NCBI GenBank assembly: GCA_963931925.1
Contig: OZ007570.1
Location: 72,691,921-72,755,920, forward strand
Source of the DNA: Onchidella celtica
Lineage: Eukaryota > Mollusca > Gastropoda > Systellommatophora > Onchidiidae
Length of the DNA: 64,000 nt
Reading direction: 5' to 3'
Part shown: one piece after another, positions 28,794 through 64,000 of the stretch
Numbering within the stretch: position 1 is the first letter of the stretch
How the letters are laid out: each line of letters begins with the position of its first letter
Program-made: the position numbers and the translations under genes
The notes under the pieces: model-generated
What the model was told of the DNA's origin: nothing
Database searches by the model: none
Seen by the model: only the letters and a program-made list of their open reading frames with translations

Positions 28794-28882
28794 AGTTAGC
28801 CTGATAGTGCATTTTCATGTGACTTGTTCATCTGCATTTGTTATGGTTTGCCAGTATATAAAACTGTTTGTATATGGGACAG

Positions 28883-38884: not shown

Positions 38885-39149
38885 TATTTTTTACAAATTT
38901 CTCTGAGTGAGTGTGGACTTCAGATATTTTTCCACAACTGGTTTGCCTACGTTTGTACTTGTGAGTACTGTGTTCATGGGTAATGTAAGTCTGTTGTCAG
39001 CAAGGACACGATGCATGTTGTCGTGGGACTGGACGAAAACAGAATAGTTTATCTAGTTCAAGCATGGACGAGGTAATGTTTGTTTCCACAAACTCAAGAG
39101 CAAGGAGAAAGAGCTGCGGTTCTTCCTGTTTTTTTTTTCCCTAACCCAG

Positions 39150-40330
39150 AGCGGAAGGAGCTGTACCTATGACCTATGCTTCACTGACTATTCAAAAGCT
39201 TTCGATAAAGTTAAACGTGAAGAATTATTTAAAATTCTGGAAGAACTGGACATGGTTGGAAAGGGATTATTAATTAGAAATCTCTACTGGGACCGGACTG
39301 CTGTGGTGCGAACTGAGGGAGAATACAGTGAATACAAAAACATCAAGAGAGAAGTCGGGCAAGGATGCGTCATGTCACCGGATCTCTTAAACATAATTAT
39401 ACAGTGAAACAATCCTTAAAAATATAGAAGAAATTCCAGGTCTTAAAAAGCAAATGGAGAAAAAAATTAATATAATATTATTATTAGATATGCTGACGAC
39501 ACTGACTTAATGGCAGGTTTAGAATGAGACCTTCAATTGCTTCTGGATACTATGGTGACCGAAAGTGAAAGTTTGGGGTTATTCTTAAACATCAAGAAAA
39601 CAGTATGCATGACAATATCTAAAAAGGCGATAAACCCTATCTGTAATCTCATATTATAAGTAAAAGTGAGACGATTAAACAAGTTCAAAAGGTTAAATAT
39701 TTAGGATTACAATTACACCCGATGGCAAATGTACAACAGAATTTATACAAAGAAGAATAGCGATGGCTAAAGATAGCTTTAATAAAATGAGCTCGATCCT
39801 AAAGAACAGAAACATCTCAATGTCAACAAAAACGAGGGTTTTGAAGAGCTATGTGTGGTCAACCCTCCTGCACGGATGTGAATGCTGGACATTAATTAAG
39901 GACATGGAAAGGACGCCAGAGGCAATGGAAATGTGGTTTATAAGGAGACTGAAATATTTCATGGAAGGAAAAGAAATCGAATGAAATGGTGATGAAAGAC
40001 GTCAACACGGAGCAATCACTAATAAGTAATATTTAATAAAAACAGGAGAAGACAAATTTTTGCAGTTCGTGGGACACCCGAATCAACACAAAGGTCTTGA
40101 ACTCCTTGCTCTAACTGGAAAAATAGAGGGCAAAAAGAAAAAAAAAGCAGAGGTAGACAAAGAATAACATATCTAGAGAATTTGAACAGATGGGCGACAG
40201 GGAAAAACCAGGACAATATGGGCTCTTTGAGAGCATCTGGGTGGAGGAATGAGTGGCGAACCATGATCGTCGATATCTGTTCCAGATCCGGCACTTGAAG
40301 AAGGAGAAGGACCCTGAGCGGTGACTGTGG
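39150..40330 (+). pseudogene. Decayed RTE-like LINE: reverse transcriptase and C-terminal region
   Basis: Pieces in shifted frames align in order with a non-LTR retrotransposon. These are the RT motif FTDYSKAFDKV near 39180, REVGQGCVMSPDLLN near 39350, the catalytic box RYADDTDLMAG near 39486, KVKYLGL-type sequence near 39690, the thumb segment VLKSYVWSTLLHGCECWTL at 39840, and RWATGKNQDN to RNEWRTMI near 40190-40260. This motif order and the GCECWTL signature are typical of RTE-type endonuclease/reverse-transcriptase elements. Several frameshifts and stops make it inactive, and the endonuclease half is missing. The poly-T-like sequence just before 39150 may mark 5' truncation. Confidence 0.8.
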
Positions 40331-44973: not shown

Positions 44974-45420
44974 TCATGACTTATGGCTTCTCATGTGACT
45001 GATAAGTCCTATTTTTGCCCTGCAGACCCTTCCGCATAAATGACAAGAGTGCTCTGTTGGTTCAGTACCACTGGGCCTTTTCTTGCGCCGTTCTCTTTTT
45101 TTGATAGCCTGCTGGACTCTGTCAGCTTCCCATGCTTTGCTGCCTCTGGTAAGGGCCGCCCTCCAATTTGCACGATCAAGCGAGAGCTTTTCCCACTCAC
45201 TCACATCAATGGCAAAGGCCTTCAGTGGTTGCTTGAGAGTGTCTTTGTAACGTCTCTTTGGGGCCCCAACATTCCTCGTTCCATTGGAGAGCTCAGAGGA
45301 GAAGATTTGCTTAGGGAGTCTGGAGTCGGGCATTCTGACAACATGTCCTGCCCAACGTAGCTGAATTTTTTTCAGGTGGCAGAAGATGCTCAATGCCTTG
45401 GCAGTATCGCACAGTGAATA
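44974..45420 (-). pseudogene. Non-LTR retrotransposon C-terminal fragment with zinc-finger end
   Basis: The minus strand reads open for about 148 codons. It carries IQLRWAGHVVRMPDSRLPKQ, then GAPKRRYKDTLKQPLKAF, a spacer with WEKLSLDRANWR, a basic KKRERRKKR run, and a terminal CHLCGRVCRAKIGLISHMRSH zinc finger before the stop. The RWAGHVxRM...LPK and terminal C-x2-C...H-x-RSH arrangement is the conserved tail of a class of invertebrate LINEs. Reverse transcriptase is absent, so it is a 3'-end fragment. Its integrity suggests it is younger than the plus-strand LINE at 39150. Confidence 0.8.
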
Positions 45421-45697
45421 GCGTAGGATTCAATTATGCTCTTATCAATACTAAACCGAGAAGTTGTTCATTTATCATATTGCGTCCACAGGTAACAGGA
45501 CCGCTGAAATGTTTGTTACCGTATCTGGGTAAAAAGACGCTGTTTAATCTACTGTTGAACGCGGAAGTAAAAAGATAACGCAAGATTTCTCTCTTACTCC
45601 CCACCCCATCCCTTGTATTCCAATGTGTATGGTTGGGTGGGAACAGCTTTATTGTCATAGCCATTCTGGGGTCCTTCTGTCTTTTATCTGCATTGTG

Positions 45698-45819: not shown

Positions 45820-45894
45820 ATGGCTGGAGACAAACCGTCCATGCCAGGCAAAAGGGAATTAGTGAGTTTGGCTGTTTTAGTCCTGGCTTTGTCG
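45820..45894 (+). CDS. Exon 1: signal peptide
   Basis: ATG in good context (A at -3, G at +4) opens MAGDKPSMPGKRELVSLAVL followed by VLALS, then donor TCG|GTAAGA in phase 0. A basic n-region, a Leu/Val/Ala core and a small-residue end are a classic signal peptide. Cleavage is likely at ALSA/QIQ, just inside exon 2. The match in phase with 50513 supports the link across a 4.6-kb intron. Confidence 0.75.
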
Positions 45895-48779
45895 GTAAGA
45901 AATACATGGCTGTTTTCATTAGTATAGATCTTTAAATATGTGTCTAGAGTTCGATGTTATTTATGCCAGCAATGGTTTTTACTACTGGTTTTAATAAAGA
46001 ATGGACTGCTGTCAGACAACATCCCGGATTTTCTGTGTTAACATTGGACCATCTGGCAGGAAAATGAAGTTATTACTCGTATTATGTGGCAGTTATCAAT
46101 ATGATGGTATTATGACAATCAGATTTTACACTAGTTACGACGTTGCACAGTCTACTGTGGGCTTCACTTCACCACCATAACATTTTTAGAAGAATGAAAT
46201 TTTGTATTTTTTTTGTATTTTGTATAACTCTTTAATCCCATTTGGGAAATTTGCCTTTTTGCCATTGCAGCCCAGTTATAACTGGAGCGGGCACGTCGTC
46301 GCCACAGTGCAGCGCCGGCGGGCGGGTAGTTTTTTTTTTGGGGGGGGGGTGAGCGGGAGGGCGACGGAAACGTAGAGATGAATTTTATTTAATTTTGCCC
46401 GGGCAGCGGCCTGTCCGGCCGGCCCTTTTCGATTTTCAACTGCCAAGGTGTCTTTAACGTGCGCAACGTGCACACGGGCCCTCCGAATTTTTTAGTCCTT
46501 ATCCGAGAAGGCTAGGTACTCGATCCTATCCCCCAATAGGATGAGGGACAGGAAAATATGAGAAAAATCCCAAACTTCCAACATGCCTGCACGGGCCGAG
46601 CACCTTGCCTCTAGACCACCAAATGGAAAATCATAATAAAGTTTTATTTATTATATTTATGTATGTAATCTGTGAAGACTAGCGATGGTCAGCAAATACA
46701 CACAGTTGTCTGTACTCGTACACTTTGTTATCTTGTCCTTCCTGAAAGAGATTAAGCTCAACAACATTGACTTCAAGACTTTGATACACATTAACAAAAT
46801 TCCTTCCGGATCTAACGAAACTATTTTTGAGAACTTTACCAATGTAATCAATTCTATATGGAACTTTAAACGGTTTTTCTTGTAAAATTTGATTTGATGT
46901 AGATCTGAATATCAAACCTAAAAAAACACCCAAAAACCTCAGGAAAGGCTCAAAATAGCTCTTATCGTGGCAAGGCGCCGTGAAACCCCTAGACAAACGT
47001 AAAGTGGCACAGTGCCGCCTGATAGTAGCATTATTCATATCTTTTTTAGTTCTTTTAATCGACTGTCTTGGACAATCTGTAATTATTATTGTGATCTTTG
47101 TTGGTTGTAACTTGTATTTATTACCCTCTAAATCAGATCTCTTTCTCGGTACACCCTGGCAATCCATTGGAAGCAATCCCTGACTTATAACCTGCTACTT
47201 TCATTCATTCTGTATTCAATACTATCAAAATTCAAATTCTGTATGTCCGCACTACTGTTCTTCTGTCTGTCAAAGTGTCATGTCAAAATAGCCAAATTGC
47301 AAAAGATGCACGTTTCAAAATTTGCACATTGAGTACAGGTTACAGTTATACATGTTCTCTGATCAGCACACTATCACTTACGATTACCTATTAAAGAGTC
47401 TATTTTTCCAATATATATATATATATTTTTTTTTTTTTTCTATTCATTTTTTAGAATTAGAACGGAAGGCCATCAAGCCATTAGCATGTGATATATTGCT
47501 GTTCACTACAATTTACAAGTCTCGCAAACACGGTCGCCATAGGACAGTGAATGAGACTTTGTGATAGAGGGGAAGCAGAGGGACAGGGGAAGAGAGAGGG
47601 AGGGAGGGAGGGCAGAAGCCGGCTTAGCCCGGGTAACGCTGGGAATCTCATTGAATTTCTCGCGGAAAATGAAGAGAATGTTGTTGTTGGAGGAGGCGAA
47701 AGTTTTATCTTGTTCTGTAACAGATGTTTTATCTCTATTTGTGGCGGTTAAATATCAGCTAAAGCCATCTCCACCCATGGGCGTGCGCTCGAAATCAACA
47801 CTTAATAGGTCTAGTACCGCGGGAGGCCCGTGATGACGTAAACGCTGAGACACGGCAGCACTAGTAGCAGTCAATGGAATGACATTGGTGCTATTTTCTG
47901 TTCTCTTTTGAAATCCGAGAAAAACGGAGTGGCATTACTGTCAAGCTGGTTGTTGGTGATCTCTGTGCGTGTGACATTAGGTGTGTCTTGTGTTCAGGAA
48001 AAGAAAAGCTGGTTGAAGAGGGTCTCCGTGATCATAGATGTGTAGTGTGTTCTTCCAATCCAAGGACAATAGAGAGTGATATGATGGGACAATCTCTTCT
48101 TGACTCCTCCAAAAAAAAAAAAAAGCACGCCTCGACATAGAGTCTGCCCATGCCTAGCGCGCAGATTTAGCACTTCGTACACTTTACTCTTGTATAGAAA
48201 ACAAAGCATAGCTGCGCCGATGGGTCGCATCAAATTGAGATGGTAGGAAAGATGGGATGTAGAAACAAGGGACAAACTAGACTCTGTCAAAGACCAACTT
48301 GTACAGTGGACTCAGCTCTCTCAGAAAAATCGGAGAAATAAAATTGTCCTTCGTCGACTCCATCTGGGTCGTACACAGCTCACACAAAACAGCTTCTTAC
48401 TCCGGATTGAAGATCCCCCGGAAGTACAATGTACAATGTATAGCGTATGACCGCCAGCTCGCTGTCAGCCACAATGTTAGAATCTACAAGTTGATTTAAC
48501 AGATTTTCATCTACAAAAATTCATTATTACAGATCCATAGACATACTTCACAATAAGGGCCTTTTACCTTTAGATTTTTATTTTCATTTTTAATTGACCC
48601 CAGAGCTGAAAACTGACACAAAATAAGACAACAACAACAACAAAAATAATAAAAAAAAGGTGCAAAATGGTGTTATGGTGCCGACCAGCAGTTTATTCAA
48701 ACTCATTTCCAGAGGCAATTAGAATTTAGAACTAGTGACATTAAAAAATCAACAACTCGCAGAAAAACCTGATGTGTGT

Positions 48780-48835
<56 letters not shown>

Positions 48836-51800
48836 AGGGGGGGGGGCCTTTATTCAAATAGTCAAATATATTCCTTTGAATCCGGCGAACTGAAACCAAT
48901 CTAGTGACTGGTGATTATTATACCGCACTGCTCTGTAGGTCCATTGCGGATAACGGCCATTTTAGTTGTCAGGACTGACGCAGAACCATGGCATTGATTT
49001 TGATTCGTTAGCTGATTTGCACTGCGAGCACTTCAGGCGTCGGGGACCAATCGGAGGCGATGTAAAAATAAGTTCACTATAGTAAACAATGACACGTGTG
49101 TTCACGCACATGGGAGACGATCAATCAATTCTTTCACTTCCTTTCCCTTGTTTACACGGATGGTAGGGAATCTGACCAGCTTGGATCCATCCTTTCCACC
49201 CCTGACATAACAGTCAACTGCAATGCAACCAGCAGGCATTTTAACCGCTTAGACAAATCTCGAAATTGCACTCGTCAGCTGATCCACCGGCCACCATTTT
49301 TGGTGTCGGAAGTACAAAACAAAAACACTCTGTGACGTCATTCGCAATGGGTCTATAACGTCTGTCCTCAGCTGGGTCACGGTGTGGCTTGTTAGTAGTG
49401 TTTTAGTGTGATGCATAATAATTAGGTGGCGTGTCACCACACCCCAGTCTTGGTCTGGCTTACCCTTGGTGATCCTCCAGCAACCATCCAGCTGGGTTGT
49501 GGTGCGGATTGTGAGTAGTGATGATACAGTATGATGCCTTGGTCTGGCTTACCCCCAAATCAGGTGGAAACTGGCCATTTTCGTTCAGTTACGAAGTTGT
49601 GTGGTGGGCATTGTTATATTCTTGACATCGATGACACGCGCGCAAATCCACGGACGGAATTTGGCGAGTTGATTCATCTCGATATCCTGTGTCTCTGGTA
49701 CAATGATAAGTTAACATTACAATGTAGTTACAGCTTCGATAATTGACAATAAAAAAAAAAGGTCAGAGTTTCTTAGGGTGATTTAAGTTTATAAAAAGTA
49801 ACCTATTTTAATCAAGGCCTAGGGGTAGAACTGAACACCACTCAGTATGTTTTCTAGGCCCATTGCGGATATTGGCCATTTTAGCTGTCACGACCGACGC
49901 CTCGCCATGGCGATGGTACCATTGATTTTGATTCGTTAGCTAATTTGCACGGCGAGCACTTCAGGCGTCGCGAACCAATCGGAGGCGAGCTAAGAAAAAG
50001 TTAACTATAGTAAACAATGACACGTGTGTTCAGGCACATGGAAGACGTTCGGTCAATTCTTTCACTTCCTCTCCCTTGTTCACACGGATGGTAGGGAATC
50101 TGACCAGCTTGGCTTTATCCTTCCCACCCCTGTCATAACAGTCAACTGCAATGCAACCAGCAGGCATTTTAACCGCTTAGACAAATCTCGAAATTACACT
50201 CGTCAGCTGATCCACCCGCCATTTTTGGTGTCGGAAGTACAAAACAAAAACACTCTGTGACGTCATACGCAATGGGCCTCTACTCGGCTCTTCAAAGTAC
50301 TCCTTTGTTTATGCCACCAACCATTCGCCGCTAGGTGGCGTGCATGAAACCTGTGAACGCAATAACGCCCCAATCTGTGGCTGTCCCTTCTTATAGTATC
50401 TAGTATCTTTAGTTCTTGTAAAACAAAAATGGAAGCATTTTCATTGCTTAGTCGTTTGGTATTGTGACTATTAAATGGATCTGTAGTCATTCGTTGTATT
50501 CATTACTGACAGGCGCAGATTCAACCAACAGATGCTGCCGTGGGTGGGAACTGTACAACAGATCCCAGCATTTGCGCCAGTGGCTCGGAGATTTGTAATG
50601 CCAACACCTGTCAGTGTGCGGCTGGTTACATAACAGACAGTGCCGTGTGCAAATGTAAGTTGGCTTGGCTGTGTTTGAGAGTGTTCTTTTTGTTGTGATG
50701 ACTATACTAGCTGACCTAGTGTTTCTATATCGATCAATCTGTTATTACAATTCTCGTTATTCTCATCCTTTTTTCTTGTAACCTCAGGCGTTTCAGTCAT
50801 TTGCATTGTAGTTGTTCACAAACTTACACCGAAAAAAGGCGTATGCAATTTTGTTTTGGGGCCATTCATAAAGCACGTGTCTTCAGAGTGTATGTGTGTG
50901 TGTGTGTGTGTGTGGGGAGGGGGGCCCCTCCCCCCTCCATAGCATATGAAAAGAATATATCGTGGGGTATTTACCATATTATTATTGCTGTATGCAGTTT
51001 GCGGATTTTGAGGTTTTGTCATGAAAATGGTTCTCTCACTCCTAATTTCGTTTGTATAAGTGACGTCATTCCAATCGGTTGAAAACTTTTCGAGATGTGT
51101 GTTTGTGACGTAATGTTGTCCTCTGATTTTTACATAATTCTTCAAAGTTTCGATCCTCATTATTTCCAAAGACAAAAAGGCACAAAATGTCATACAACAA
51201 AAAATACCCGACGATATGGAAGGGTGGGGGGTCATTTGTGGAAAATGTACGTAAATTGTCTGTTATGGTAATGAATTGAAAATACTGCATGTATAGAGAA
51301 GGAGAGATAAGTTGTTGAATTCTACAAAAACAAAACAAAACAACAACAACCCCCCCTCCCCCCACCCCCACCCCCCACAACAACTGTTTCTGATGAAATA
51401 AGAAATAGTCCATGGAAAAATCCCAACCGGATCTTCAGAACATCCAGGCCTTATCGTGGACAGGCACCATATTCAATCAGCAGTGCGCCAAGCATACGGT
51501 CTTGAAACCTACATATGGGAGGTGGGGGGGGGGGGGGGAGGAGGAATGTTCCAAATGGACCTACGTATTTTATGAATGGTCCCTTCCTTAATAGTTTGTA
51601 ATTTGTCATCAAGTAGTCAATGATTTGGTACCATGTGCCCTTAATCGCAAAAAAACGTAGCTGATAATTGTTTTAAAAAAACTAAACTACCGGTATATGT
51701 ACAATGTCAAGAGCAAAAGTCCTTATAATGATAGTACATTTTCCCCAGTACCCGGGCATGGTGAACAATGTCAAACATCACCCGGTTGTGGACCCAGTCT

Positions 51801-54800
51801 TCAGTGCGATGCGGCGACAAAGACATGCCAGTGTGGGACAGACCAATATTACGGCAGTTCTAGGTGTGAAAACAGTAAGTTCAGAGTAATGTGTTCTCGT
51901 CAGCGCCATATTCAGTACTAGTTTACGTACCTTTCTGATCTACCACTCTTTCTTTGAGGTATGATACCTTCATAGGCATTGCATGATAACTTTAGTTATA
52001 CGTGCAAGTATTTTGCGCCTGACTATGTGGGGTTAGTGCGATTATCAAGCAAGGAATATTTGTCAGCGAGTGTCAAGAACATACTATTATAATACCACAG
52101 AAAAACTGGGGTCGCAGCAAGGCTTAAAGCAAAGTGAAAAATGGACAAAAAGACAAAGTTGTATGTTGCAAAGCCTCGCGTAAGAAATAATATCCAAACA
52201 ATACAATAAACGCAAAAGAAAAAGGGAAGAGAGAAAATGCCAATATTTCGGCAAAAATCTTCGCCAAGAAAGAAAAGAAAAGAAAAGAAAACAAAAAAAA
52301 CCAAAACAACAAAACACAAAAAAACAACAGAAAAAGAAATAGAAAATTGAACTGTTAAAACAGTCGAACAATTAAAAAAAATTAGAATATAGAATATTAA
52401 ATAAATGCGTCTACTTATTTGCGAGTCCTGGTTTGTAGTTAAAGATGCACGTCTCATATTAGTGACTACAAATTGCAAAATATTTATGAATTTACCCATT
52501 TGTACTATTGTAAAACGGGCGGTTATCATTATGTCATAAATGAAGAAGTTTTTGTTTCATGATTGTTTGTTTCAGATAAATTGTGTACCTTTTTATCTTT
52601 TCCGAATTTCTTCCTGTATTCAAGACTCTGGTGCTGCCTGTGCAGTGAACGCTCAGTGTCGGTCAACTCTCAGTTGTCTATCTAACAAGTGTGGCTGTAC
52701 ACCTGACCAGTTCTTTAATAGTTCACAACACAAGTGTCAGACAAGTAAAGTGTCACAGTTTGTCATAATATGTTATGTCAGGTCACATAGTATTATGATT
52801 ATCAGATGAATAATAGATGGTGGTGAGACAGTTCACGATGAAGTCTGACATAAGTTTATTGGACGTGTGACATTAAGCTGCTTAAGTAGACCTACACTAG
52901 CACTGCTTAAACTTCGAGCTTTCAATGCAGCCGTAAGTTTAATTTCGTTAAACAAAATACCTTTGTTGGGTTCGGTGTGCAATGATTTTTATCGTTGCTT
53001 TCTTTCCGAGATTGCATATTTACAGCCATGCAACCCAGCCCAGCCCCTATGGCATTGAATGAAAGCTGTGATTACACTTAGCCCACTTTGACGAAATATA
53101 AAAACTTCAGAAAAACTGTGGGATTGCAGCAAGGCTATATGCAAATTCAAAATTTGGCAAAAAGAAAAAGTTGCCTGTAGCAAAGCCTCGTGTAAGAAAT
53201 AATACCCAAACGATACAATGAAAAGCAAAGTAAAAAAGAAGACAGAAAATGGCCGATATTTCGGCAACAGCCTTTTTCAAGGAAAAAAACAACAACACAA
53301 ACACACACACAAAAAGGAAAATTGAACAGATAAAATCGAACAATAAAAGATTTGAGTAAAAAAAAAAAAGCATTTGACAGCGAGCCTTGAGAGTATAGCA
53401 CTACTTGTTACACACTTTTAAGACGATCCACTGAAAGTATTATATTATGAGTGATGAAAAGAGTTCCAAACGTCCCGAACAAGCAGTCAAGATACCCAAA
53501 TTCTATTCCTAATCCTGTCACCATCTCCAATTCTAAATCTTTGTTTTCTGGTTGAAATGGTTACGGGATAGGTTTAGTGTACTCTTCGGGTATCTTAATT
53601 GAGTGATCGGGACGTACGGCACTCTTTTCCTGACGATTATCATTGCACAGTGAATGAAGTTTTCGTGTGATTTTTGTTTAATGATTATTTGATTCTTACC
53701 AGTCTGCATATCTTTCGTCATCTATTCCATGTTTCTTCTTGTATTTCAGGGAAAGACTTTGGTGCTGACTGTGCAGGGAACACTCAGTGTCGGTCAACTC
53801 TCGGCTGTCTATCTAACAAGTGTGGCTGTACATCTGACAAGTTCTTTGACAGTTCACAACACAAGTGTCAGACAAGTAAAGTGTGACAGTTTGTTATAAT
53901 ATGCGATGTCAGGTCACATAGTCTATGATTATCAGATGTATCATAGACGGTGGTGAGATCGTGAAGTCTGTTCTTTTTTCATCAATCGTGTTAGATTGTT
54001 GATATAATAATAATAATAATAATAATGTATAGCATTATATAGAAGTACGGCTTGAACTTCAAGCTTCAAGACAACTTTAAGTAACAGTTCAACTTTGTTA
54101 AATAATGGCCAACCTTTGTTGGGTTTATTTTGTACTGATCATTATTGTTGATTCCTTTCAGAGATTGCATATTCACAGCTATGCAACTCAGCACAGTCCA
54201 GTAACAATGTATGTGCTGAAGCGAATACAGTTTGTATTGCCGCTAAGGACAACACAAATCGCTGCTTGTGTGGTCAGGACTACTACAGGACCGATGGTGG
54301 AGCTTGTAACCACTGTAGGACATCTTTATTTTTGATCCCTTTTATCAAAGTCCATACTGATATTGTGTTTCTCAGATAAACATCTATTTACAGTGAAAGT
54401 TAAATGTTAAAAAGTTCAGGTGATAATAAGCTCCAGACCGTGACAGAAGGTGACGGTCTGAATGTAAATTTGGTTTCCCTCTCTAACATATGAAATAACT
54501 AGAGGAAATCAGTGGTCAAATTATGTTTAGAAATTATGATGGAAAAATTGGTAGAAATATCATTAAGGAAAATCTCAATTTTCAGTCGTACCCATAAAAT
54601 ATACCAAATGTGGGGCTGGACAAAATGTTGCACCAACGACTTTCTGTCACGTCACAGTCTCATGTCTGAAATAATTTAAAGGATAGAGGGGCACAACCTG
54701 TTCATTTGAACCAGAGGAGATTGAAGGGTGTTGAATCATTAAATTAATACGCTTAATAGACTTTTAAATACTGCATATTTTGTATTCTTGTGTTTTGTAT

Positions 54801-57800
54801 TTTGTACACTTCTTTAATCCTACTTGGGAAATTTGCGTTAGTGTCATTGCAGCCCAGTTACAACTGGAGCAGACACGTCGTCGATACAGTGCAGCGCCGG
54901 CCGGCGGTTTTGTGTGTATGTGGGGGGTGGGGGGGGGGTGGTATTTTTTTTTTCGTCTCTCCGGCCTGCTTTTTCGTTTCAACTGCCAGGGTATCTTTAA
55001 CATGCGCAACGTGCACGGGCATTCCAAGTTTTTCATCCTTATCCGAGAAGACTAGGTGCTCGATGTGCCTACCATAGGATCAGGGACTGAAAAATATGAG
55101 AAAGATCCAAAAATTCCAACATGCCTGCACCGACCGGGAATCGAACCCAGCCATCGGTTTGAGGGGCGAGCACCTTGCCTCTCGACCAAGGTGTCCCCTT
55201 TCATACTTTAGCAACCACTGTCTTTCTCCAATAAACCGTAAACGGGTGTAATTTACTATAGCTGCCATGGAGCCATGGAGGTCTTATTATGTTGTTATGC
55301 TTTTTTTTTCTCCTCAAGTAAACAGCCTGAGAGTGACATCAGTCAGGACTACCAGAGAAACAGCACGTATTGTCTTTAACTGGAACTCTGGGAATCCTGG
55401 GAGAAATGACGTCACTTATACCGTAATGTACAACAATGGAGTGGCCAAGGCCAACCAGACAGGAGGAACAGTTTCTGGTCTTACCCCAGGCACACAGTAC
55501 AACTTTCAGATCATTTCCTCTCTACCAGCGGGCACATATTATTCAGAGAAATTTGCCATAGAGCCAGTCAATGGAATTTGGACAAGTGTGTTTTTTTTCT
55601 TATTGGTTGTAAATTTTTAACTGCATTTTTATTTTCAGTCTTTCATATGCGTGACAGGTGTCAGCAGAGTGGACCATGTGACCCAAGTAACCCCCTGTCA
55701 CAGTGCCACAGTTTATTCCATCATTATACGCTAACGAGTGAACAATAAATGCATTGAAAGTCACTTAATTGAACACTATTTGCCTTTACAGAGGAATCAT
55801 CCCGTCCTTAATCGGCATACCTATATAATGTATGTGTATGTGTGTGATTGTGCGCTCGAGTCCATTCAATATTTATACACGATTTGTTCAATATACATCT
55901 TTATTGGCAATGCTATAGACAGAGGCATGGATGTGAGACTAGTTAGTGAAGTTCTTGTAGCTTGATGAAAAACGATGAAAAATGGCTTAAAAATATCCAA
56001 ACTTTCGCAGACAAAACTAGCCAAAAATTCCGTATCCCTAAACATAATGTGCAATCGCATTCGTTATCTGTAACAATCACTATTGTGTCATAAGAGTTGG
56101 TTGAAGGATGGCATTATTTGTAGGGTCAGTCAGTGATAGGTTTAATAACGTCCAGCCTTTCACCATACCTCAACTGTTGTGATATTGTTTGACCGGACAG
56201 AATCAGCTAGACCAGGAACTGTACAAAACCCAGTTCGCTGCAGCCAACTAAATTAATGTGACCCACTTTCATTACCAATCCGGCTTTCAGTGTTACAGAA
56301 ACGAGACAATAAAACCTCAAGGCAAAGGAGAAGTAAAACGAGCTAACAGTCAAAGAGAGTCTCATGTAGCCAGAAATGGAAACTATGAACAAAAAATTAA
56401 GTAATGTATTTCTGTCTTGAAACTGACCAGAATCTCAGTGACATGCTTAAGGCCACACAAGCGCTGACATTCACATTGTGTTGAATACATTTTCAAGGTG
56501 TGTTACATTTTTTAAAGACACTTTATTATTAGGGGTCTAGTAAAATCACAGGATAAAGATGCCAAAAACACTCGTTCAGTAATGCACCTGACATAATGTA
56601 GCACTGAACAACCTACGCCCAAGGAAGTAAAGAAACGAGGAGGAAGTTAAACGGAATTAAGAACAACAACCAAAAAATTATTCTTTGTTGACAGATGTTA
56701 GATAGTGCAGAGTGGTACCCAAGTCACAGGGTACAGACAAGAATCAGGTCGTCACATTTCGTCCATCGTCTTGCGAGCGTATTATCGATGTCAACATTGC
56801 AACAATTCGCACCACGTCGCTTCATAATTGAATGAAAAACAATAGTACTCACCGCATTAATAGCCGCGCAATTTGTGGACATATCGTGGGAAAAAGAATG
56901 GTTCGTTTCGGTATTCTGTGTCTCGGGTGGTACACACGAAACAAAGTACACGTGTCTGATTTCATCCTGCAGATTTAAGACTGTGATGCCATTTGTCTTA
57001 TTTTTTTTGTTAATAAAATGTGTATTTTCATTTCAGAATTTTCTTACAGTCAGCAGTGTAACATTACTCAGGCCACAAATGTTGTCTGTGATGAAACAAA
57101 TACAGCATGTGTTGATGACCCTGACAATTCAAAACGATGTTTGTGTAGTCAGAATTACTACAGGCCTACTAGTGGATCATGCATGTCTTGTAAGAATAAC
57201 TATGGTTAATGTTTAATCAGCACAGATTATTATGTTTAAATGTATTGCAACTAAGCAGTCATGCTTCACTTTAGGAAATAGGATATCTCAGACGCTTTTC
57301 TTTTTTCTTTTACTTCTGCGACAAAACTGGTCTCTACAGTAAAAAGTATGTATTGATTTTGTTCTGTCTCCCGTTGGATGAGCTACCATCGGGGCTTTTA
57401 CTTTTACTGGGTCTCTGGTGAGAAGTGTTCTGGGTACATACGTTTATCACTTGAATAAGTAAAAACGTGTAATAAACATTTAAATACTTTCATATCTTAG
57501 CGATCATTGTCTGATTTCAAACAACCGTTTCGGATGTAATTTATTATACATGTCATGGAGCCACAGAGGTTCTACTATGCTGCCATGCTTTTATTTTTCA
57601 AGTAACTAGCCTGAGAGTGACATCAGTCAATCCTACCACAGAAACAACACGTATTGTCTTTAACTGGAACTCTGGGAATCCTAGGAGAAATGACGTCACC
57701 TATACCATCAAGTACAACAATCGAGAAGTGCCGGCCAATCAGACAGGAGGAACAGTTTCTGGTCTTACCCCGGGCACACAGTACAGCTTTCAGATCATTT

Positions 57801-60800
57801 CCTCTCTAGCAGCGGACACATACTACTCAGAGAAATCTGCCCCTCCTTTGTCAGTCAATGATTGGACAAGTGCGTTTTTTCTTCTTCATTATACATTTTT
57901 TAAAAATTGCATTTTATACTTTCAGTCTCTGATATTTGTGACAGGTGCTGGTTAGCAGAATGTAAGAAACAAATACAATCTTTTATTGTATTGTCAACAT
58001 GTAATTTAAATCTCTATGTGGTGCAAACTTAAAACTAGAAAGGAAAGAATATACAAAGAGAAGGTAATAAACAACAACCAAACCCCTGGCATTTAATAAA
58101 GATTGGATTGACATTTTTTACCTTTGGCGCTGGGTAGCCGCTACACTAACATGTGTTGTTGTGCAGCACACAGAGTGGATCATGTGTCTCAAGTACACCC
58201 GGACTGTCACAGCGGATCCATTCCACCATTTCTGGTGTACGATAAAATGCACTGAAAGTCACGTGACTGAACATCTCTCTATTTGCCTGTACTGACAAAT
58301 CATGCCATCCTTTACCGGCATACCTACATAATGTGTGTATGTGTGTGTATGTATGTGTGCATGAGAGTGTGTGTGTCTGCCTGCCGTGCATGTGTGTGTA
58401 CGTTTGTGTGTATGTATGTATTCAATGATTATGTATGATTTGGTTTATAATATAAATGTTTAATAGCGGTGCTATCGGCCGAGGCATGTACGAGGGACCA
58501 GTTTTGCAAAGTTTTTGTTGTTTGATATAGCATGATAAAAAATAGCTTTAAAATAGTCAAACTTTCGCTGACAAATGTAGTTGGAATTTTTCACGTATAA
58601 ATATGCAATTGTTTTTGTAATCTCTACCAATTACTGTAATGTCATCAGAATTGGATGAAGAAAGAAGCCATCGATTGTCTGCGCTGTGTACGGTCAGTCA
58701 GTGATATGTTTAATAAAGTCCAGCCTTTCTCCATACTTCAGCTGTTATGATGTTGTTTGATCTGACAGAACCAGCCAAACCAGGAACTGTAGGAACCCCA
58801 GTTCGCAGCAGCCAACCTAACGAGACATACTTTATTTACCAAGTCACTTTTCAAGGCTCTACTGGGAATGTGGCTAAATATACTTTGTCGGTGACGGGCA
58901 ATGAGGCAGCAACAATACCAGGCGGTAGAACATCTCAGCCCATACAAGTATACCTATACAAGCTGGTACCTGACCGTACCTACAGTTACATATTGACAGC
59001 TTATAATGGGAACTTTCCACAAGACCCTAGTGAACCTGTAAGGAGTACGTTCAAGACAGGATCCAAAGGTGAAAGAACATACTTGTTATACTGGACAAAT
59101 GTCCTATCCTGCCTGTCGTATTGTATGTTATTTATGCATTTATGGCTCACGATAAAGCAACATCATTTCATACTCAATGACGTAAAAGATACATTTATAG
59201 ATAAGTCAGCCCTACTTGCTGCCATGCCTATCGCTTCTCTTCCCCCCCCCCCCCCAGCATGTCCCTTTAGGCTCAAATCTGTTGGGATCAGGAGATTTTA
59301 ACGCTGTGTTATATGAATATTTTGCACATAGGTCTGTATATATCGCAGACAATATGAGATTTCACACCTCCCCCTTCCCCCAACCTCCCGCACCATTGCC
59401 ACAGTATTGTATCTGAAATCACCCCATCTCATCATGTTTCACACCATGATCACATATGCAGCGCTATTTTGCCTCATCTTAGCATGAGAATGTACATGTA
59501 ATGTCATGAAGATTAAAAAAAAAAAAGCTTTTTTTGTCATGATTCAAACGACTCTCCAGTTCAGTTTTCCTTACACTTGGAAAGAAAGAGAGAAAAAAGG
59601 GGAAGCTGTTTCCACATGCAATGATCGCTACTGCTGCCATATTAACAGACAACAGTTAAGTTAACTATAAATATTATTTTCATTCCACAATTTTGCTAAA
59701 CAGAACTACGCATGTGCCACTGATTAATCTTGGCACCCAAGGGCACATAGCACGTTCAAGATAATAATAATAAATTAACTTTTATCATTGCAGAAGTTTT
59801 CTTATCTGTGTGGATAAGCAAGGATTGTTGTGCCCTCAGATTATTCGTTGCATCTTATTATATCTTTTATTCAGGCTTTTTTCAGGAAAGAGCAGGAGAG
59901 AAATGGGAGGGTGGGAGTAAATTTCAATTCTGCGTTGCATTAGGAGTGAAAATTTTCTCTAAGTATTTTCTGTTGTTCTCTTTCCTTCTTCTTTTTTTTT
60001 TTTTTCTATTACTTTTTTGACAAATTCTGTTGTGAAAAGAAAAGAAACACTGCAATACATGAAAGACAAAGTTGGGGTTGATATCTGTTCCAGTCTTGTT
60101 GCAAACCTGCAATATCTTGACACATAAAAGTCCGATGCAGCATTCAAATTGGTATAGGTTAGCAAAGGAGCCATATAGAAAGTAATATAGCACGATGTCT
60201 TTGTCACCTGACACTGGCGAGCTATAGCATTTCTTCTTGCTGACATGATTGTCCATGTACACATGTGTCTGACCAGGACCGGGACCAGTCCAGTTCCTGA
60301 ATGTCACAACAATCACAGAGGACAGTGCAGTAATCACGTGGACGACTCCGCGCAGCCCTAATGGCAACATCACAGGATATCGAGTGGAAGTCACACAAAA
60401 TAACCGCTGTCTGTATGTGATGAGGGAAACGTGCCCTGATTGTGTCCATGGGCAGATCATTGTAAGTTTGGCGTCCCCGTGACCAACTGGCCATATATGG
60501 GACAATTTCATATTCATACCTAGAGTAAATCAGGCCATACATTGTTAAAGCATATGGAGCAATGTTATGGAAAAGGCACTAAAATTTTAACAAAATCAAA
60601 AAATAAAAAAATAAAAAAATAAATTAGGACTGTAGATATCTGAAGTTGGAAAATGAATCTTGCAAAGTATGGTTAACTCTGAATTCCCATAGCATCCTAG
60701 CTGGCAGTGATGTTAGGAGTGTCAATGTTTTTGAAATACCAATGTCTTACAGATAGTTCAGACAATATTACAAAAACTTAAGGTCTCGAAATTACCATTC

Positions 60801-63153
60801 AAACAAGAAATTCTTCAGTTTGAATTGAGCTGTGTCATTGCTTATCATAAAGGATGTTTTCTCTCTCATTCAGCTAAATAACTTTGCGGCTATTTTAGTT
60901 GTCTGTCCCAGACGTCAAGCTGCAAAGTTTTATTTTAAGTATGTAATTCCTCAAACCTCCATGTAAAAAAGGATCACCAGATGTTTGATAATTTGTTCGA
61001 ATGTCGATTTCGCTATTACTAATAATCCATCTGCCTGCCCGCTGGCGACCGCTTCTTGTGCAATTAGTGTCAAAGTTGTCATTTTCTGTCTGATAGCTAC
61101 ATAAACAATTCATGTTGTTCTGAAACGAAGATCATTAACATGAATAATTATACTAACAGTGCATCATACTTTTGTGTTAAATAAATCTATCAGGGACACC
61201 AAGGACTGTCCTTTTTTTTCCCGAGCTCACTAAATTTTTTTTTTGGTACCCCATTAGCGAGTCAGACTAACCTGTTAAATATGGTAATGTTTAGACAATA
61301 CTGTTAGTACTGTGACACCCTGTTAGTTGTCTCTTTCGTATTTTATGTTTTAGTTGCTGTTTGAAAAGCAAAGAGGAAATGAGATCTGTCACTGAAAATG
61401 TTTGTTAGTTTTCTACTTGCGCCTGGTCTATACAAAACCTAGGGTGAGCTCTTCCCACTTTCCCGCGTCTTGAAAAGAAGCGCCCGTTGTTAGTCCTGAT
61501 GCCACAACGATAATAAAGGTCTCCAAACTATAGAGGACCGGTCTAAAGTAGCTGTTTATGTTAGTTCTGTTCATGTCCCGACCAACACCTAACTGAATGC
61601 GACAAAGTGTAAAAGTTGCATGGACAGAGAGGCCGAGGTAAATAGCGAATAGATGATCCGAAGGGAGCAAAATTTTCTTAGCAGTAAAAAATGAGGGGGT
61701 TGTAAATTTGATTATGGCACACCGAGACTGCCCCATGCCGAGCCTCACCAACTATCTGTTGGGCGTCTTAGGATGTAAAAACCTGCCAAAAAACCACCCG
61801 TGACCTCCAGCAGTTACAATGACACTATCAGTATACATAATGAAGTTCACACAAAGCTTGGTGTATGTGGGTGCTTTCCTCGGGACAGTCACCAAATACT
61901 GTTTTATATTGTGTGAACCGCTGATTCTGTCAGTAACTGCGTAAAGCCTCTCCAGACCACCGTTGACAGTTCTCATGACTTGGAAAAAACATTATTTTGT
62001 AAGGCTTAAGTTTGTAGTTCCACTCTGAACTCTGATATTGTGATGCTAATCTAGTAACTTTCCTATCAGCAGTTCTGCATTTTGGGCAGAGCCATTGTAA
62101 TTTTACATTGTACTGTTACAGTCGACCCCCAGCTCCTGCTCAGTGAATGAACACAAACAGTACAGTTTTGCCCAGTTAAACAATGCCAGTACCACATACA
62201 AACCGACCTTGCCACAGCTGAAACCTTACACTCTCTACACAGTCAGTGTTCTTGCTGAAGATGAGGAAGGACCCGGCACTCCCCAGCAAACCTCTTTGAC
62301 TACACAGGTTGCAGGTGATCTGTTGTTGTTATCACTGACTTAGTATAAAAACCACCATAAAGAAAAGTCAAGACAGATCAGGTCTGGCAAAAGATGACAT
62401 AAATATTTTTCATGGTAACTCTGACATCCTCACCCAGACGTCGCCCATGATTGAGTACAAAACCGAGATTACATTTCTTCATAAGTACATGTATGTGCAT
62501 CTCATCTGTATTTGCCATTAGCCCCTCTTTCCGAAAGTATAATGATGTCAGAAATGAAATGTCTTTTGTTAAATTTGTACATTTCTGTGTTACCCAGCTG
62601 CCAATGCTGTGCAGAAGATTGAAATGAGTTCCACCCTCTCTGGAAGAATGATCATTCTCAGGATTACATGGAGCCCAGGAGAATTCACTGGTCCCACGTC
62701 TTATGATGTTTCGGTGTCAGAAGAGAAAAATCTCAACTCTGGAGAGTTTGTAATAGTTAAAACAGCGAACATCCCAGGCAAGTCCTTCAATGGCAGGTAT
62801 TGCTGACAGGTGGTAAACCATTCACTAACATTTGCTCGATGCAGAAACAATACAAAACGACCATTTACTGCCCTGAGAAGAAAGTCAAAATTGAGCCGAG
62901 TATCATCTAAATTAAATCTTATCATTGCAGAAGTTTTCTTACCTGTGTAGATAAGCAAGGATTGTTGTGTCCTCAGATATTCGTTGCATCTTATTATATC
63001 TTTTATTTTATAAACAGGAGAGATGTTTCTAATGTTGAATGTGTTATCACTGGATCTCCTGCTACAATAACCATGTGTCTGAGTCAGACTTTCACTGGAT
63101 CTCCTGCTACAATAACCATGTGTCTGAGTCAGACTTCTGACTATAGCTTCTGA
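45820..63153 (+). CDS. EB/EGF-like + fibronectin III secreted or cell-surface protein (14 coding exons, gene span)
   Basis: Exons: 45820-45894, 50513-50654, 51749-51874, 52625-52744, 53750-53875, 54162-54314, 55319-55585, 57037-57189, 57603-57869, 58769-59068, 60277-60461, 62122-62314, 62598-62796, 63018-63153. They join with matching phase at all 13 junctions and total 2442 nt, 813 codons plus TGA. Order: signal peptide, four EB modules, EB-FN3, EB-FN3, FN3, FN3 (two exons), FN3 (two exons). EB and FN3 modules are extracellular and bind proteins or glycans; repeated FN3 domains are common in adhesion receptors and receptor phosphatases. No transmembrane segment precedes the stop, so this is either a secreted protein or a receptor whose downstream exons are cut off by the TGA or lie outside. 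I know no named orthologue. Confidence 0.82.
46204..46620 (-). mobile_element. tRNA-derived SINE, copy with deleted B box
   Basis: On the minus strand the head reads GGTGGTCTAGAGGCAAGGTG (A-box like) but joins directly to the body, missing about 35 nt that contain the B box in the 54774 copy. The shared body includes GTGCACGTTGCGCACGTTAA and ends AAAATACAAAAT-rich. Without a B box it should be unable to promote itself. Confidence 0.75.
48225..48490 (+). pseudogene. LINE fragment, C-terminal region after RNase H
   Basis: Translation gives ERWDVETRDKLDSVKDQL, then NRRNKIVLRRLHLGRTQLTQ, NSFLLRIEDPPE, and in another frame CIAYDRQLAVSHNV. The order W..W-type segment, R-L-x-L-G-R-T-x-L-T, ED-P-P-E-C, and R-Q-L-x-V-S-H is the conserved end of I/jockey-type LINE polyproteins. 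One frameshift after PPE and stops upstream mark decay. Confidence 0.7.
48773..48832. repeat. Compound (TG)n(AG)n microsatellite
   Basis: TG dinucleotides with one TC interruption run into AG dinucleotides and then a G tract. Noted as a likely polymorphic site. Confidence 0.95.
48937..49354 (-). mobile_element. Inverted-repeat unit carrying a THAP first exon, copy 1
   Basis: Ends AGGTCCATTGCG and CGCAATGGGTCT are inverted. The 418-bp unit is about 90% like copy 2 at 49856-50279, in the same orientation. On the minus strand it begins with promoter-like motifs: a CRE (TGACGTCA is present near 49334), ACTTCCG (ETS-like) and AAAATGG (YY1-like), then a THAP start codon. It is either a TIR transposon that encodes or captured a THAP exon, or a duplicated gene 5' end. 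Confidence 0.6.
49102..49239 (-). pseudogene. THAP zinc-finger N-terminus, copy 1
   Basis: The minus strand opens MPAGCIAVDCYVRGGKDGSK, then LVRFPTIRVNKGKEV, and stops after 45 codons (DRLPCA). M-P-x-x-C-x-A-x-x-C followed by a basic Gly/Lys stretch and R-F-P is the start of a THAP C2CH finger. The C-terminal C-x2-H half and the AVPTIF box are absent, so it is an isolated first part; a splice donor may have been lost. THAP domains occur in transcription factors and P-element-like transposases. Confidence 0.6.
49356..49560. repeat. Local direct repeats between the two THAP units
   Basis: CAGCTGGGTCACGGTGTGGC with GTTAGTAGTG recurs as CAGCTGGGTTGTGGTGCGGA with GTGAGTAGTG, and CTTGGTCTGGCTTACCC appears twice. 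About 95 bp per unit. This may reflect how the larger duplication arose. Confidence 0.6.
49856..50279 (-). mobile_element. Inverted-repeat unit carrying a THAP first exon, copy 2
   Basis: Ends AGGCCCATTGCG and CGCAATGGGCCT are perfect inverted repeats of 12 bp. The unit holds the same CRE (TGACGTCA), ETS-like and AAAATGG words and THAP start as copy 1. Copies differ by scattered substitutions and a 6-bp length difference. No clean target duplication is seen. Confidence 0.6.
50030..50167 (-). pseudogene. THAP zinc-finger N-terminus, copy 2
   Basis: MPAGCIAVDCYDRGGKDKAK, LVRFPTIRVNKGEEV, ERLPCA, stop: the same 45-codon length and stop as copy 1, with six or seven amino-acid differences and no frameshift. 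An equal open frame in both copies could mean selection or simply recent duplication. Confidence 0.6.
50513..50654 (+). CDS. Exon 2: EB module 1
   Basis: Acceptor ATTCATTACTGACAG in phase 0, donor CAAAT|GTAAGT in phase 1. AQIQPTDAAVGGNC leads into a 6-cysteine module (C..C..C..CQC..C), with core CNANTCQCAAGYI. The first residues complete the predicted signal cleavage site. Confidence 0.82.
50655..51748 (+). other. Intron 2
   Basis: Contains a (GT)n tract at 50890-50915, C-rich (51350-51376) and G-rich (51520-51540) runs, and no further exon with support. Confidence 0.55.
51749..51874 (+). CDS. Exon 3: EB module 2 (symmetric phase 1-1)
   Basis: Acceptor CATTTTCCCCAG; donor AACA|GTAAGT. 126 bp encode PGHGEQCQTSPGCGPSLQ and CDAATKTCQCGTDQYYGSSR plus a last Cys: six cysteines in EB spacing. 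In-frame skipping is possible. Confidence 0.82.
52083..52380. repeat. Intron repeat, copy 1 of a duplicated EB-exon unit
   Basis: Matches 53106-53372 along about 270 bp, including CAGAAAAACTG at the start, AAGCCTCG(C/T)GTAAGAAATAAT in the middle and AATTGAAC near the end, in the same orientation. It sits before exon 4 as its partner sits before exon 5, so intron and exon duplicated together. Confidence 0.75.
52625..52744 (+). CDS. Exon 4: EB module 3 (symmetric phase 1-1)
   Basis: Reads SGAACAVNAQCRSTLSCLSN, KCGCTPDQFFNSSQHKCQTS: six cysteines. Donor CAA|GTAAAG. The acceptor is weaker than in its duplicate: GTATTCAAG where exon 5 has GTATTTCAG, so this exon may be spliced inefficiently. 120 bp, in-frame if skipped. 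Confidence 0.75.
53106..53372. repeat. Intron repeat, copy 2 of the duplicated EB-exon unit
   Basis: Partner of 52083-52380. It is followed by exon 5, whose sequence is about 88% like exon 4. Confidence 0.75.
53750..53875 (+). CDS. Exon 5: EB module 4 (symmetric phase 1-1)
   Basis: Acceptor TTCTTGTATTTCAG; donor CAA|GTAAAG. KDFGADCAGNTQCRSTLGCL, SNKCGCTSDKFFDSSQHKCQ: six cysteines. Nearly identical to exon 4 in sequence and in the donor context, so a recent duplicate. Confidence 0.82.
54162..54314 (+). CDS. Exon 6: EB module 5 (unit 1 of the EB-FN3 duplication)
   Basis: Acceptor GATTCCTTTCAG; donor CACT|GTAGGA, acceptable but weaker than most here. IAYSQLCNSAQSSNNVCAEA, NTVC, NRCLCGQDYYRTDGGAC: six cysteines with the longer first loop also seen in exon 8. 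153 bp, phase 1-1. Confidence 0.8.
54774..55199 (-). mobile_element. tRNA-derived SINE with intact A and B boxes
   Basis: On the minus strand the head has TGGTCGAGAGGCAAGG (A box) and GGGTTCGATTCCCGG (B box) in tRNA spacing, the internal RNA polymerase III promoter. A GC-rich body shared with 46204-46620 and an ATACAAAACACAAGA-type tail follow. The corresponding site in the second EB-FN3 unit (about 57487) lacks it, so the insertion postdates that duplication or was never in that copy. Confidence 0.85.
55319..55585 (+). CDS. Exon 7: fibronectin type III domain 1
   Basis: Acceptor TTTTTCTCCTCAAG; donor CAA|GTGTGT. Eighty-nine residues make one complete FN3: NSLRVTSVRTTRETARIVFN with the conserved Trp (FNWNSGN), VTYTVMYNN (C strand), VSGLTPGTQYNFQIISS (the E-F signature L-x-P-x-T-x-Y). 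Exon 9 is its duplicate. Phase 1-1. Confidence 0.85.
56201..56345 (+). pseudogene. Decayed FN3 exon (duplicate of exon 10)
   Basis: From GTCAGTCAGTGATAGGTTTA (about 56128) through the acceptor GACCGGACAG the sequence follows the 5' side of exon 10. The translation SARPGTVQNPVRCSQLN then meets TAA at 56254-56256, and similarity fades by about 56345. The acceptor is intact but the frame is not, so inclusion would truncate the protein. Confidence 0.75.
57037..57189 (+). CDS. Exon 8: EB module 6 (unit 2 of the EB-FN3 duplication)
   Basis: Acceptor TTTTCATTTCAG; donor TCTT|GTAAGA. FSYSQQCNITQATNVVCDET, NTACVDDPDNSKRCLCSQNY, YRPTSGSC: six cysteines, the same 153-bp length and phase as exon 6. Confidence 0.82.
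57603..57869 (+). CDS. Exon 9: fibronectin type III domain 2
   Basis: Same length (267 bp) and phase as exon 7 and about 88% alike. TSLRVTSVNPTTETTRIVFN, WNSGNPRRNDVTYTIKYNN, LTPGTQYSFQIISSLAADTY. Acceptor TTTATTTTTCAAG; donor CAA|GTGCGT. Differences include an extra Leu-Ser and loss of the Ile-Glu near the end. Confidence 0.85.
57960..58460. repeat. Intron part of the duplicated block, microsatellite-bearing
   Basis: AGAGTGGATCATGTGTCTCA to CGGCATACCTACATAATGTG parallels 55665-55850 (AGAGTGGACCATGTGACCCA to CGGCATACCTATATAATGTA). This copy then expands into a (TGTG/TATG)n microsatellite at 58330-58420. Confidence 0.7.
58769..59068 (+). CDS. Exon 10: fibronectin type III domain 3
   Basis: Acceptor TTTGATCTGACAG; donor AAAG|GTGAAA; 300 bp, phase 1-1. 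PAKPGTVGTPVRSSQPNETY, YQVTFQGSTGNVAKYTLSVT, YLYKLVPDRTYSYILTAYNG: FN3-like with L-x-P-x-x-x-Y and the terminal tyrosine strand. Its decayed twin is at 56201. Confidence 0.82.
59069..60276 (+). other. Intron 10
   Basis: Includes a 94-bp sequence (59783-59876) repeated at 62921-63010 just before exon 14. Otherwise AT-rich with a C run at 59241 and no exon. Confidence 0.55.
59783..59876 (+). repeat. Intron repeat shared with the acceptor region of exon 14
   Basis: TTATCATTGCAGAAGTTTTC through TCGTTGCATCTTATTATATC matches 62921-63007 with a few changes. The second copy leads into the exon 14 acceptor; this one leads to no homologous exon, so it is probably the remnant of a lost duplicate. Confidence 0.8.
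60277..60461 (+). CDS. Exon 11: first half of FN3 domain 4
   Basis: Acceptor CATGTGTCTGACCAG; donor ATT|GTAAGT; phase 1 in, 0 out. PGPVQFLNVTTITEDSAVIT, WTTPRSPNGNITGYRVEVTQ: conserved Pro, Trp and the GYRVEV C strand. A cysteine-containing insertion follows (CLYVMRETCPDCVHGQII). Confidence 0.85.
60462..62121 (+). other. Intron 11
   Basis: No plus-strand exon. On the minus strand 61428-61976 reads as one frame of 183 codons broken by a single stop, containing hydrophobic stretches (IVVASGLTTGA). No family is recognised; it might be an old pseudogene or chance. Confidence 0.45.
62122..62314 (+). CDS. Exon 12: second half of FN3 domain 4
   Basis: Acceptor TTGTACTGTTACAG in phase 0; donor GCAG|GTGATC in phase 1. 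STPSSCSVNEHKQYSF, then LPQLKPYTLYTVSVLAEDEE and GPGTP: the E-F signature L-x-P-Y-T-x-Y-x-V-x-V-x-A of FN3. One more Cys could pair with those in exon 11. Confidence 0.85.
62598..62796 (+). CDS. Exon 13: first part of FN3 domain 5
   Basis: Acceptor TTTCTGTGTTACCCAG; donor CAG|GTATTG; phase 1 in, 2 out. ANAVQKIEMSSTLSGRMIIL, RITWSPGEFTGPTSYDVSVS: conserved W-x-P and SYDVSVS C strand. If the donor is ignored the frame ends a few codons later (RYC stop). Confidence 0.8.
63018..63153 (+). CDS. Exon 14: last part of FN3 domain 5, ends at TGA
   Basis: Acceptor TTTATAAACAG; 1 base completes the codon AG|G. RDVSNVECVITGSPATITMC continues with an exact 15-residue tandem repeat and ends SDYSF-stop at 63151-63153. 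FN3 folds normally continue beyond the YSF strand with V-x-G-x-N/D-A; the codons just after the stop read MVGEDALSN, which fits. The stop may be a nonsense allele, or the end of a truncated isoform. Confidence 0.65.
63049..63138 (+). repeat. In-frame 45-bp tandem duplication in exon 14
   Basis: Two units of 45 bp starting at 63049 and 63094, virtually identical, each encoding TGSPATITMCLSQT plus one residue. It inserts 15 residues in a beta-strand region of FN3. Confidence 0.9.
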
Positions 63154-63198
63154 ATGGTGGGTGAAGATGCATTATCAAATAAGGTCTTGGAAACGAAC

Positions 63199-63336
63199 GC
63201 TCAGTGATCTCAGAATTATATTCTCAGTGATATTAGAAATGACTGTATTCTCAGTGATCTTAGAAAAGTGCTTTTAGTGATCTTAGAAACGTATCGGGTA
63301 CCCTCAGTGATCTAAGTAACGTATTCTCAGTGATCT
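63199..63336. repeat. Tandem repeat of CTCAGTGATCTTAGAAAC-like units
   Basis: Six degenerate units of 20-28 bp with core TCAGTGATCTTAGAAA lie just after the stop codon of exon 14. Confidence 0.8.
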
Positions 63337-63951
63337 TTTCCGCATAATGCAGTTTTATGTACGGTATATAAATGGTAGGCCAGAGAGCGATATGGAGTTA
63401 TGAATTAGATCAGACACCAGAATTGGCATGAAGAAAGAAGAAAGGTATACAGCAATTGTTTATTACTTTGTAGGGACCTGTTGCATCAAATGGCGTGAAT
63501 TAAAATTTCATGTGGTCTTATCATGTGGATGGGTTCCGATCACAGAGATTATCATTGTTATCAGTACAGTTTTTATTATCATAATTTGTATTTCATCAAA
63601 TGATTCTGTGGACATTGTGCCACATGCCAAGAGAGTGATAATATGTTTCAAGAGTACAGTCACTGCAAATCACTCTCTTCACAAATGGATTACAAAACAA
63701 AATATCCGACGGGTTCCTTCTGTCAGAATTAAGTCATATAGGTAAATCGGCCAGAGGCTGCTATGACATAAACCATATCTGCTTCCCTAGTTGGCTAAAA
63801 GTCAATGCACAATTATGTTAAATTTCAAACTGTCCGAAAAGCCAGAATGTCATTCCTACAATTATCTGTACACAATTAGACGATCAAAAAACAAATTGAA
63901 CAAAAAAAAAAAGGCGCTACTCATGCCTAAAAGACCCACCCCCTCCCCAAA
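63337..63951 (+). other. 3' flank or intron of the EB-FN3 gene
   Basis: An open frame at 63428-63745 contains a membrane-like segment (ITEIIIVISTVFIIIICISS) but lacks a clear acceptor, so it is not called as the transmembrane exon. No poly(A) signal was identified. Confidence 0.35.
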
Positions 63952-64000
63952 ACAACAACAGCATCAACAGCAACAACAACAACAACAACAACAACAACAA
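63952..64000. repeat. (CAA)n microsatellite at the window edge
   Basis: ACAACAACAGCATCAACAG followed by uninterrupted CAA units to the last base; it continues beyond the window. Confidence 0.95.

Follow-up and report, generated by a model that had tools for sequence, protein, structure and literature searches.

A stretch of 64,000 nucleotides of the Onchidella celtica genome (hereafter the window; C4:72691921-72755920) carries a series of exons in which small six-cysteine modules are interleaved with FN3 domains, and the locus raises the question of what kind of protein these exons encode and whether that protein has a counterpart among described genes. An earlier note on this DNA joined 14 exons, all on the forward strand, into a protein of six EB modules and five FN3 domains, and left it as a receptor or a secreted ligand apparently without a named counterpart. 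We re-examined the join and extended the analysis to the flanking sequence and to the whole genome (1.14 Gb, 43 contigs).

The 14-exon join was reproduced: all 13 junctions are of the GT-AG type, the phases are consistent, and 813 codons are followed by a stop. E1 (45820-45894) contains the start ATG and a putative signal peptide of 25 aa (judged by eye), and its assignment as the first exon is a prediction from the ATG, the hydrophobic stretch and the donor site. It is followed by four EB-like modules, E2 (50513-50654), E3 (51749-51874), E4 (52625-52744) and E5 (53750-53875), the last a duplicate of E4, and by an EGF-like module in E6 (54162-54314) and an FN3 domain of type a in E7 (55319-55585). 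A relative of E6, the EGF-like E8 (57037-57189), precedes the E7 duplicate E9 (57603-57869), the FN3 domain of type b in E10 (58769-59068), and E11 (60277-60461) and E12 (62122-62314), the first and second halves of an FN3 domain of type c. E13 (62598-62796) encodes the first half of an additional FN3-like domain. Introns are in phase 0 after E1, in phase 1 after E2-E10 and E12, in phase 0 between E11 and E12, where the intron splits the domain, and in phase 2 after E13. The earlier count of exactly six cysteines per small module holds for E2-E6 and E8. Two relic exons lie on the same strand within the gene, namely the start of an E6-type exon (53006-53046) and an E10-type FN3 exon with stops in all three frames (56201-56278). 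Within the first intron a unit of roughly 430 nt occurs twice, at 48929-50282; its copies lie about 925 nt apart and are 80-94% alike depending on the part compared. LINE or other reverse-transcriptase-like fragments were recognized by eye at 39057-39407(+) and 44974-45429(-) of the window, and at L003:6828-8744(-).

The proposed terminal exon E14 (63018-63153) fits in phase, yet the length of its frame is at the chance level: in the region 62797-64000, 10 of the 74 AG sites yield an equally long or longer frame in the E14 phase, a count that takes in E14 itself and in which several sites share one frame. A 94% copy of the repeat at 59771-59871 ends just 5' of E14, and E14 itself carries a perfect 45-nt tandem duplication. 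It does not provide the missing half of the E13 domain, and a search for this second half across 62797-64000 gave a best E value of only 0.24. On account of the chance-level frame and the adjoining repeat copy, E14 was rejected as the last exon; it looks like a chance open frame and is probably no exon. The receptor gene extends past the window, and its last exons lie beyond it.

In the 10 kb directly 3' of the window, which were read in part (the remainder being N), we found five C-terminal exons on the same strand as the window gene (5014-5133, 5753-5855, 6116-6186, 6983-7192 and 8325-8599, numbered within this 10 kb), and the phases at their four junctions are consistent. Translated, they give a juxtamembrane segment, a single transmembrane helix (recognized by eye) and a tail some 130 residues long, after which comes a stop. 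Because the first of these exons needs a predecessor ending in phase 1 and E13 ends in phase 2, at least one further exon must lie between them. By their order, strand and phases the C-terminal exons would belong to the same gene as E1-E13, in which case the helix would have over 50 residues on either side. In the paralogous copies at C4:68.2 and 68.4 Mb, E12-, E13- and C1-type places follow one another in the same order. The cytoplasmic tail has seven tyrosines (YSGI, YEEV, YVNQ, YNND, YNNM, YETA and YSNI), four of which are in a YxN context, which we take to be the kind of site bound by Grb2-type SH2 domains. A 'YCNGP' stretch, of a kind known from RPTP-like FN3 domains, sits in the juxtamembrane segment. 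The transmembrane exon and the tyrosine-rich tail thus favour the receptor of the two options originally offered, the secreted one leaning on the chance-like exon 14. Of the transmembrane or kinase/phosphatase exon that the earlier note proposed to look for downstream, the former was found, but no kinase or phosphatase signature: a pattern scan of the window and of the 100 kb beyond it, 10 kb of which are N, detected no phosphatase HC-loop or WPD and no kinase HRD. One RNRY and two DFG matches were the only pattern matches, and their frames are short (16, 57 and 35 residues); on these patterns a phosphatase or kinase exon was rejected for the part of the window gene that was read. A PDB search with E13 plus the C-terminal part returned two chance matches only (E 0.22).

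Pfam recognized fn3 in four stretches of the joined protein (1.2e-29, 102.8 bits), so that four of the five FN3 domains originally counted were recovered and the fifth is present by half, in E13; relatives of E13 occur at C4:68197166(-) (52%) and C4:68397837(-) (49%). The six EB modules were recovered in part. Over the whole protein EB reached 0.0016, below the cut-off, and on the E2-E5 block alone (PF01683) it reached 5.7e-8, with 33.1 bits against a cut-off of 24.3. When eight EB-type modules (four from the window and four from paralogues) were scanned singly, four matched EB at E<=1, the best with 22.3 bits against the same 24.3. With EB module proteins the window gene shares the block-level score of E2-E5, and it differs from them in E6 and E8: E6 alone matched no Pfam family, and EB was not matched by E8. 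EGF_MSP1_1 was weakly matched by five of eight modules of the E6/E8 type (E6, E8 and six paralogue modules; best E 0.004), E8 reaching 15.5 bits where the cut-off is 27. When profiles of the E6/E8-type and E2-E5-type modules were compared, 19 columns aligned with a probability of 16.9; a PDB profile search with the E6/E8 type gave a best E of 0.098, and an AlphaFold model of the E8 module, built with eight sequences, had a mean pLDDT of 58.5.

The window gene is a member of a clustered, duplicating receptor family. An FN3 query (E9-E12) matched at least 47 places genome-wide at E<=0.01. At least 43 of them fall within the 68.2-74.4 Mb part of C4 (the window gene itself accounting for five), and at least two each on C2 and C11; a few of these places contain stops. 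A query with the transmembrane exon matched seven places on C4 at E<=0.1, its own place included, and a Y-x-x-I/V motif after the helix is kept in four of the five aligned transmembrane exons, F replacing Y in the other. Four of the C-terminal exons recur, 91-96% alike, at C4:70264147-70274916(+); in its transmembrane exon, at C4:70274821, the frame stops three codons past the helix, and this copy may be tail-less or decayed. A dense EB-type array near the receptor cluster, at C4:70851590-70936893(-), perhaps represents one or more EB-rich genes. The receptor blocks at C4:68.21-68.30 and 68.40-68.48 Mb, about 203 kb apart, have identical or nearly identical FN3 exons, and are either the product of a recent segmental duplication or duplicated in the assembly only.

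Comparison with the neighbouring paralogue at C4:72883-72893k(-) accounts for the domain order that had seemed to match no described family. The order in this paralogue is EB, EGF-like, EGF-like, FN3a, FN3b, EGF-like, FN3a, FN3b and FN3c (two exons), so that the unit [EGF-like, FN3a, FN3b] occurs twice. The window gene follows this plan but for its first FN3b exon, which is reduced to the relic at 56201-56278; the intact counterpart in the paralogue is C4:72888799-72889104(-). The relic is 0.811 identical to E10, near the 0.781 of its intron. The odd order of EB and FN3 domains is thus explained by duplication of exon blocks followed by the loss of an FN3b exon. Among 12 FN3a exons, pairwise dN/dS (Nei-Gojobori, with few changes in some pairs) was 0.33-1.49 for the 42 defined values among the 43 of 66 pairs listed, and 0.37-1.49 for those of the listed pairs with dS <0.8; these values fit relaxed or diversifying selection. 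Within the window gene the ratio was 0.71 for E7/E9 and 1.11 for E4/E5. For E6/E8 it was 0.17, with dS near saturation, so that fast change is not common to every duplicate.

The surroundings of the receptor were then compared with described loci. NOPS is a domain of the NONO/PSPC paraspeckle proteins, and a genome search for it found two places, which are the two halves of one domain (C4:72674602-72676581(+)); this gene is the only NOPS gene found in the genome, and the receptor starts 61 kb downstream of it. A Gly/Met-rich frame at 7187-7537(+) of the window ends with ERRREAAREELNDIKRMRRF (KRMRRF), the NOPS exons being located 15-17 kb before the window, and to judge from its sequence this frame is probably the C-terminus of the paraspeckle gene. 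A NONO-like segment had no match in the window itself; the NOPS exons lie before it. With one paraspeckle gene found in 1.14 Gb, its nearness to the receptor is unlikely to be due to chance, although three neighbour families were tested. The interval that separates the paraspeckle gene from the receptor contains an open frame of 694 aa (25317-27398(+)), Ser/Thr-rich and containing GGYEHPAADSE twice; neither this frame nor those at 27917-28339 and 28824-29117 matched a Pfam family. The genome has 33 places matching the haemocyanin domain PF14830, which we take to be a molluscan family.

In the literature searched, paraspeckles and Biomphalaria come together in a single report, on the Guadeloupe Resistance Complex (GRC) of Biomphalaria glabrata (PMC4361660), a locus that makes this freshwater snail resistant to schistosomes. 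As described there, the GRC has seven single-pass genes, of which four have FN3 domains and one, grctm2, resembles a receptor phosphatase, and the paraspeckle component gene pspk is on the end of a scaffold thought to adjoin the grctm genes, with a hemolysin-like gene between. In B. sudanica, the orthologues of grctm2-4 are described with FN3 and/or TMEM154, that of grctm2 with TMEM154 (PMC10875847). According to these descriptions, the window receptor shares with the GRC/PTC1 grctm genes the clustering of single-pass genes, long segments both outside and inside the cell, FN3 stretches in the ectodomain, and linkage to a paraspeckle component gene; the receptor-phosphatase likeness of grctm2, its tandem duplication, and fast protein change are, by description, further points of likeness. 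The window gene differs in its EB/EGF modules, which are not mentioned for grctm genes in the accessible parts of PMC4361660 and PMC10875847. TMEM154 (Pfam) was absent from the receptor matches at E<=1. Further, ArfGAP and hyaluronidase, in distinction to the GRC as described, are not within about 1 Mb of the window receptor: the seven hyaluronidase matches in the genome are all on C4 at 6.3 and 51.6 Mb, and of 11 ArfGAP matches one, the best, is on C4 at 23.9 Mb. To look for counterparts of the GRC znf genes, the window was scanned with a zinc-finger pattern, and none of the four matches was convincing. The distant ArfGAP and hyaluronidase places and the missing TMEM154 match speak against simple orthology. 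The likeness to the GRC, as far as the descriptions go, consists of one nearby gene and the same kind of receptor, and orthology would be a tentative reading. The PTC2 genes of Biomphalaria, which in the accessible parts of PMC7494358 are polymorphic, have no known domains beyond a transmembrane segment and are not GRC homologues, share the clustering of single-pass genes with the window receptor and differ from its EB/FN3 architecture in lacking known domains. In the literature searched, no report combined EB modules with fibronectin, so the view that the gene has no named counterpart stands for this combination, but not for the receptor kind, as single-pass receptors with FN3 domains are described from the GRC.

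An arrangement that bears on the ancestry of the family is found in a sister copy. Behind its juxtamembrane exons (C4:68186853-68183774(-)), on the same strand, there is a protein tyrosine phosphatase domain (C4:68167468-68162878(-)), which matched PF00102 with one exon piece at 6.5e-17 and with two further exons joined at 6.6e-25; with some 14 kb of unread sequence between them, the two parts possibly belong to one gene. No other phosphatase places near the receptor family were found in two phosphatase listings, in one of which 150 of 286 candidates were scored, and none for the window gene in the window, in the 100 kb downstream (10 kb N) or in these listings. Many tyrosine-phosphatase exon places on C5, at 3.2-4.2 and 11.2-13.5 Mb, suggest a separate expansion. 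Like receptor-type protein tyrosine phosphatases (RPTPs), the window gene has an FN3 ectodomain and a single transmembrane helix, and in contrast to them it has a tyrosine-rich tail, no phosphatase signature having been found in the sequence read.

Two readings of the receptor deserve weight. The first, to which we give about an even chance, is that it is a single-pass (type I) surface receptor of the mollusc which serves immune-type recognition at a GRC-like locus. The second, possible but distinctly less probable, is that the same receptor acts in adhesion or guidance, as RPTPs do; the cluster would then be the product of ordinary tandem duplication, and the nearness of the paraspeckle gene would be old synteny without functional meaning. 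The phosphatase domain behind the sister copy speaks for adhesion, as do the PDB sequence relatives of the receptor, which are generic FN3 proteins (titin, DCC, RPTP-delta and RPTP-F, Eph receptors and contactins). Against it stand the recent gain of copies and the many FN3a pairs with dN/dS >0.5, a combination that is unusual for conserved adhesion receptors, and the failure to find a phosphatase signature in the window gene as far as it was read. What tips the balance towards immune recognition is the clustering of the genes, the gain and loss of exon blocks, the dN/dS values and the GRC-like location.

That the locus is a decaying pseudogene is improbable. The two relic exons inside the window gene and the stop soon past the transmembrane helix in the C4:70274821 copy would agree with decay, but the 13 credible exons in the window and the five C-terminal exons are open and have GT-AG sites, and duplicate exons are closer to each other than are the introns. 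E7 and E9 are 0.897 identical, compared with 0.767 and 0.836 in aligned introns, and E4 and E5 are 0.917 identical, compared with 0.776 and 0.815, a modest gap computed on short stretches. Since the duplicates exceed the identity of the introns and protein-level relatives of the exon types E2 to E13 occur at other places in the genome, the exons appear to be coding beyond chance. Still lower is the probability that the EB and FN3 parts are two genes; at C4:70.85-70.94 Mb many EB-type places do occur away from FN3 matches, and EB-only genes may exist, but the small modules alternate with FN3 exons in the window gene and in the paralogue at C4:72883-72893k, and exon phases are consistent across the junctions. 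Equally slight is the chance that the 813-aa protein is complete and secreted, as a decoy or a matrix protein, by way of exon 14, possibly an alternative 3' end, for which the fit in phase speaks and against which stand the chance-level frame, the half-built E13 domain and the transmembrane and tail exons downstream.

Returning to the immune-type receptor, we envisage that the small disulphide modules and FN3 domains would form a stalk with variable faces, and that the ectodomain would bind a ligand that is probably either foreign or carried by another cell, upon which receptors would cluster. A kinase could then phosphorylate the tail, and SH2 adaptors would be recruited. The ectodomain would diversify through duplication, divergence and loss of exon blocks in the expanding cluster. 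The receptor type is known in kind; what is new is the EB/EGF-FN3 architecture, in which relic exons persist, together with the tail and the linkage of the cluster to a paraspeckle gene. Only tentatively, we propose that the locus is the counterpart of the schistosome-resistance complex of snails, an old molluscan immune complex anchored by a paraspeckle gene, in which a phosphatase-receptor ancestor would have given rise through tandem duplication to catalytically empty receptors with phosphotyrosine tails and with ectodomains reshuffled as exon blocks were duplicated and lost. If the link to the GRC is true, the schistosome-resistance locus of Biomphalaria would represent a more ancient immune-receptor complex of molluscs, the sister copies, with a phosphatase behind one and a tyrosine tail in others, would show the passage from an enzyme receptor to an adaptor receptor, and the origin, ligands and signalling of the complex would become open to study across molluscs.
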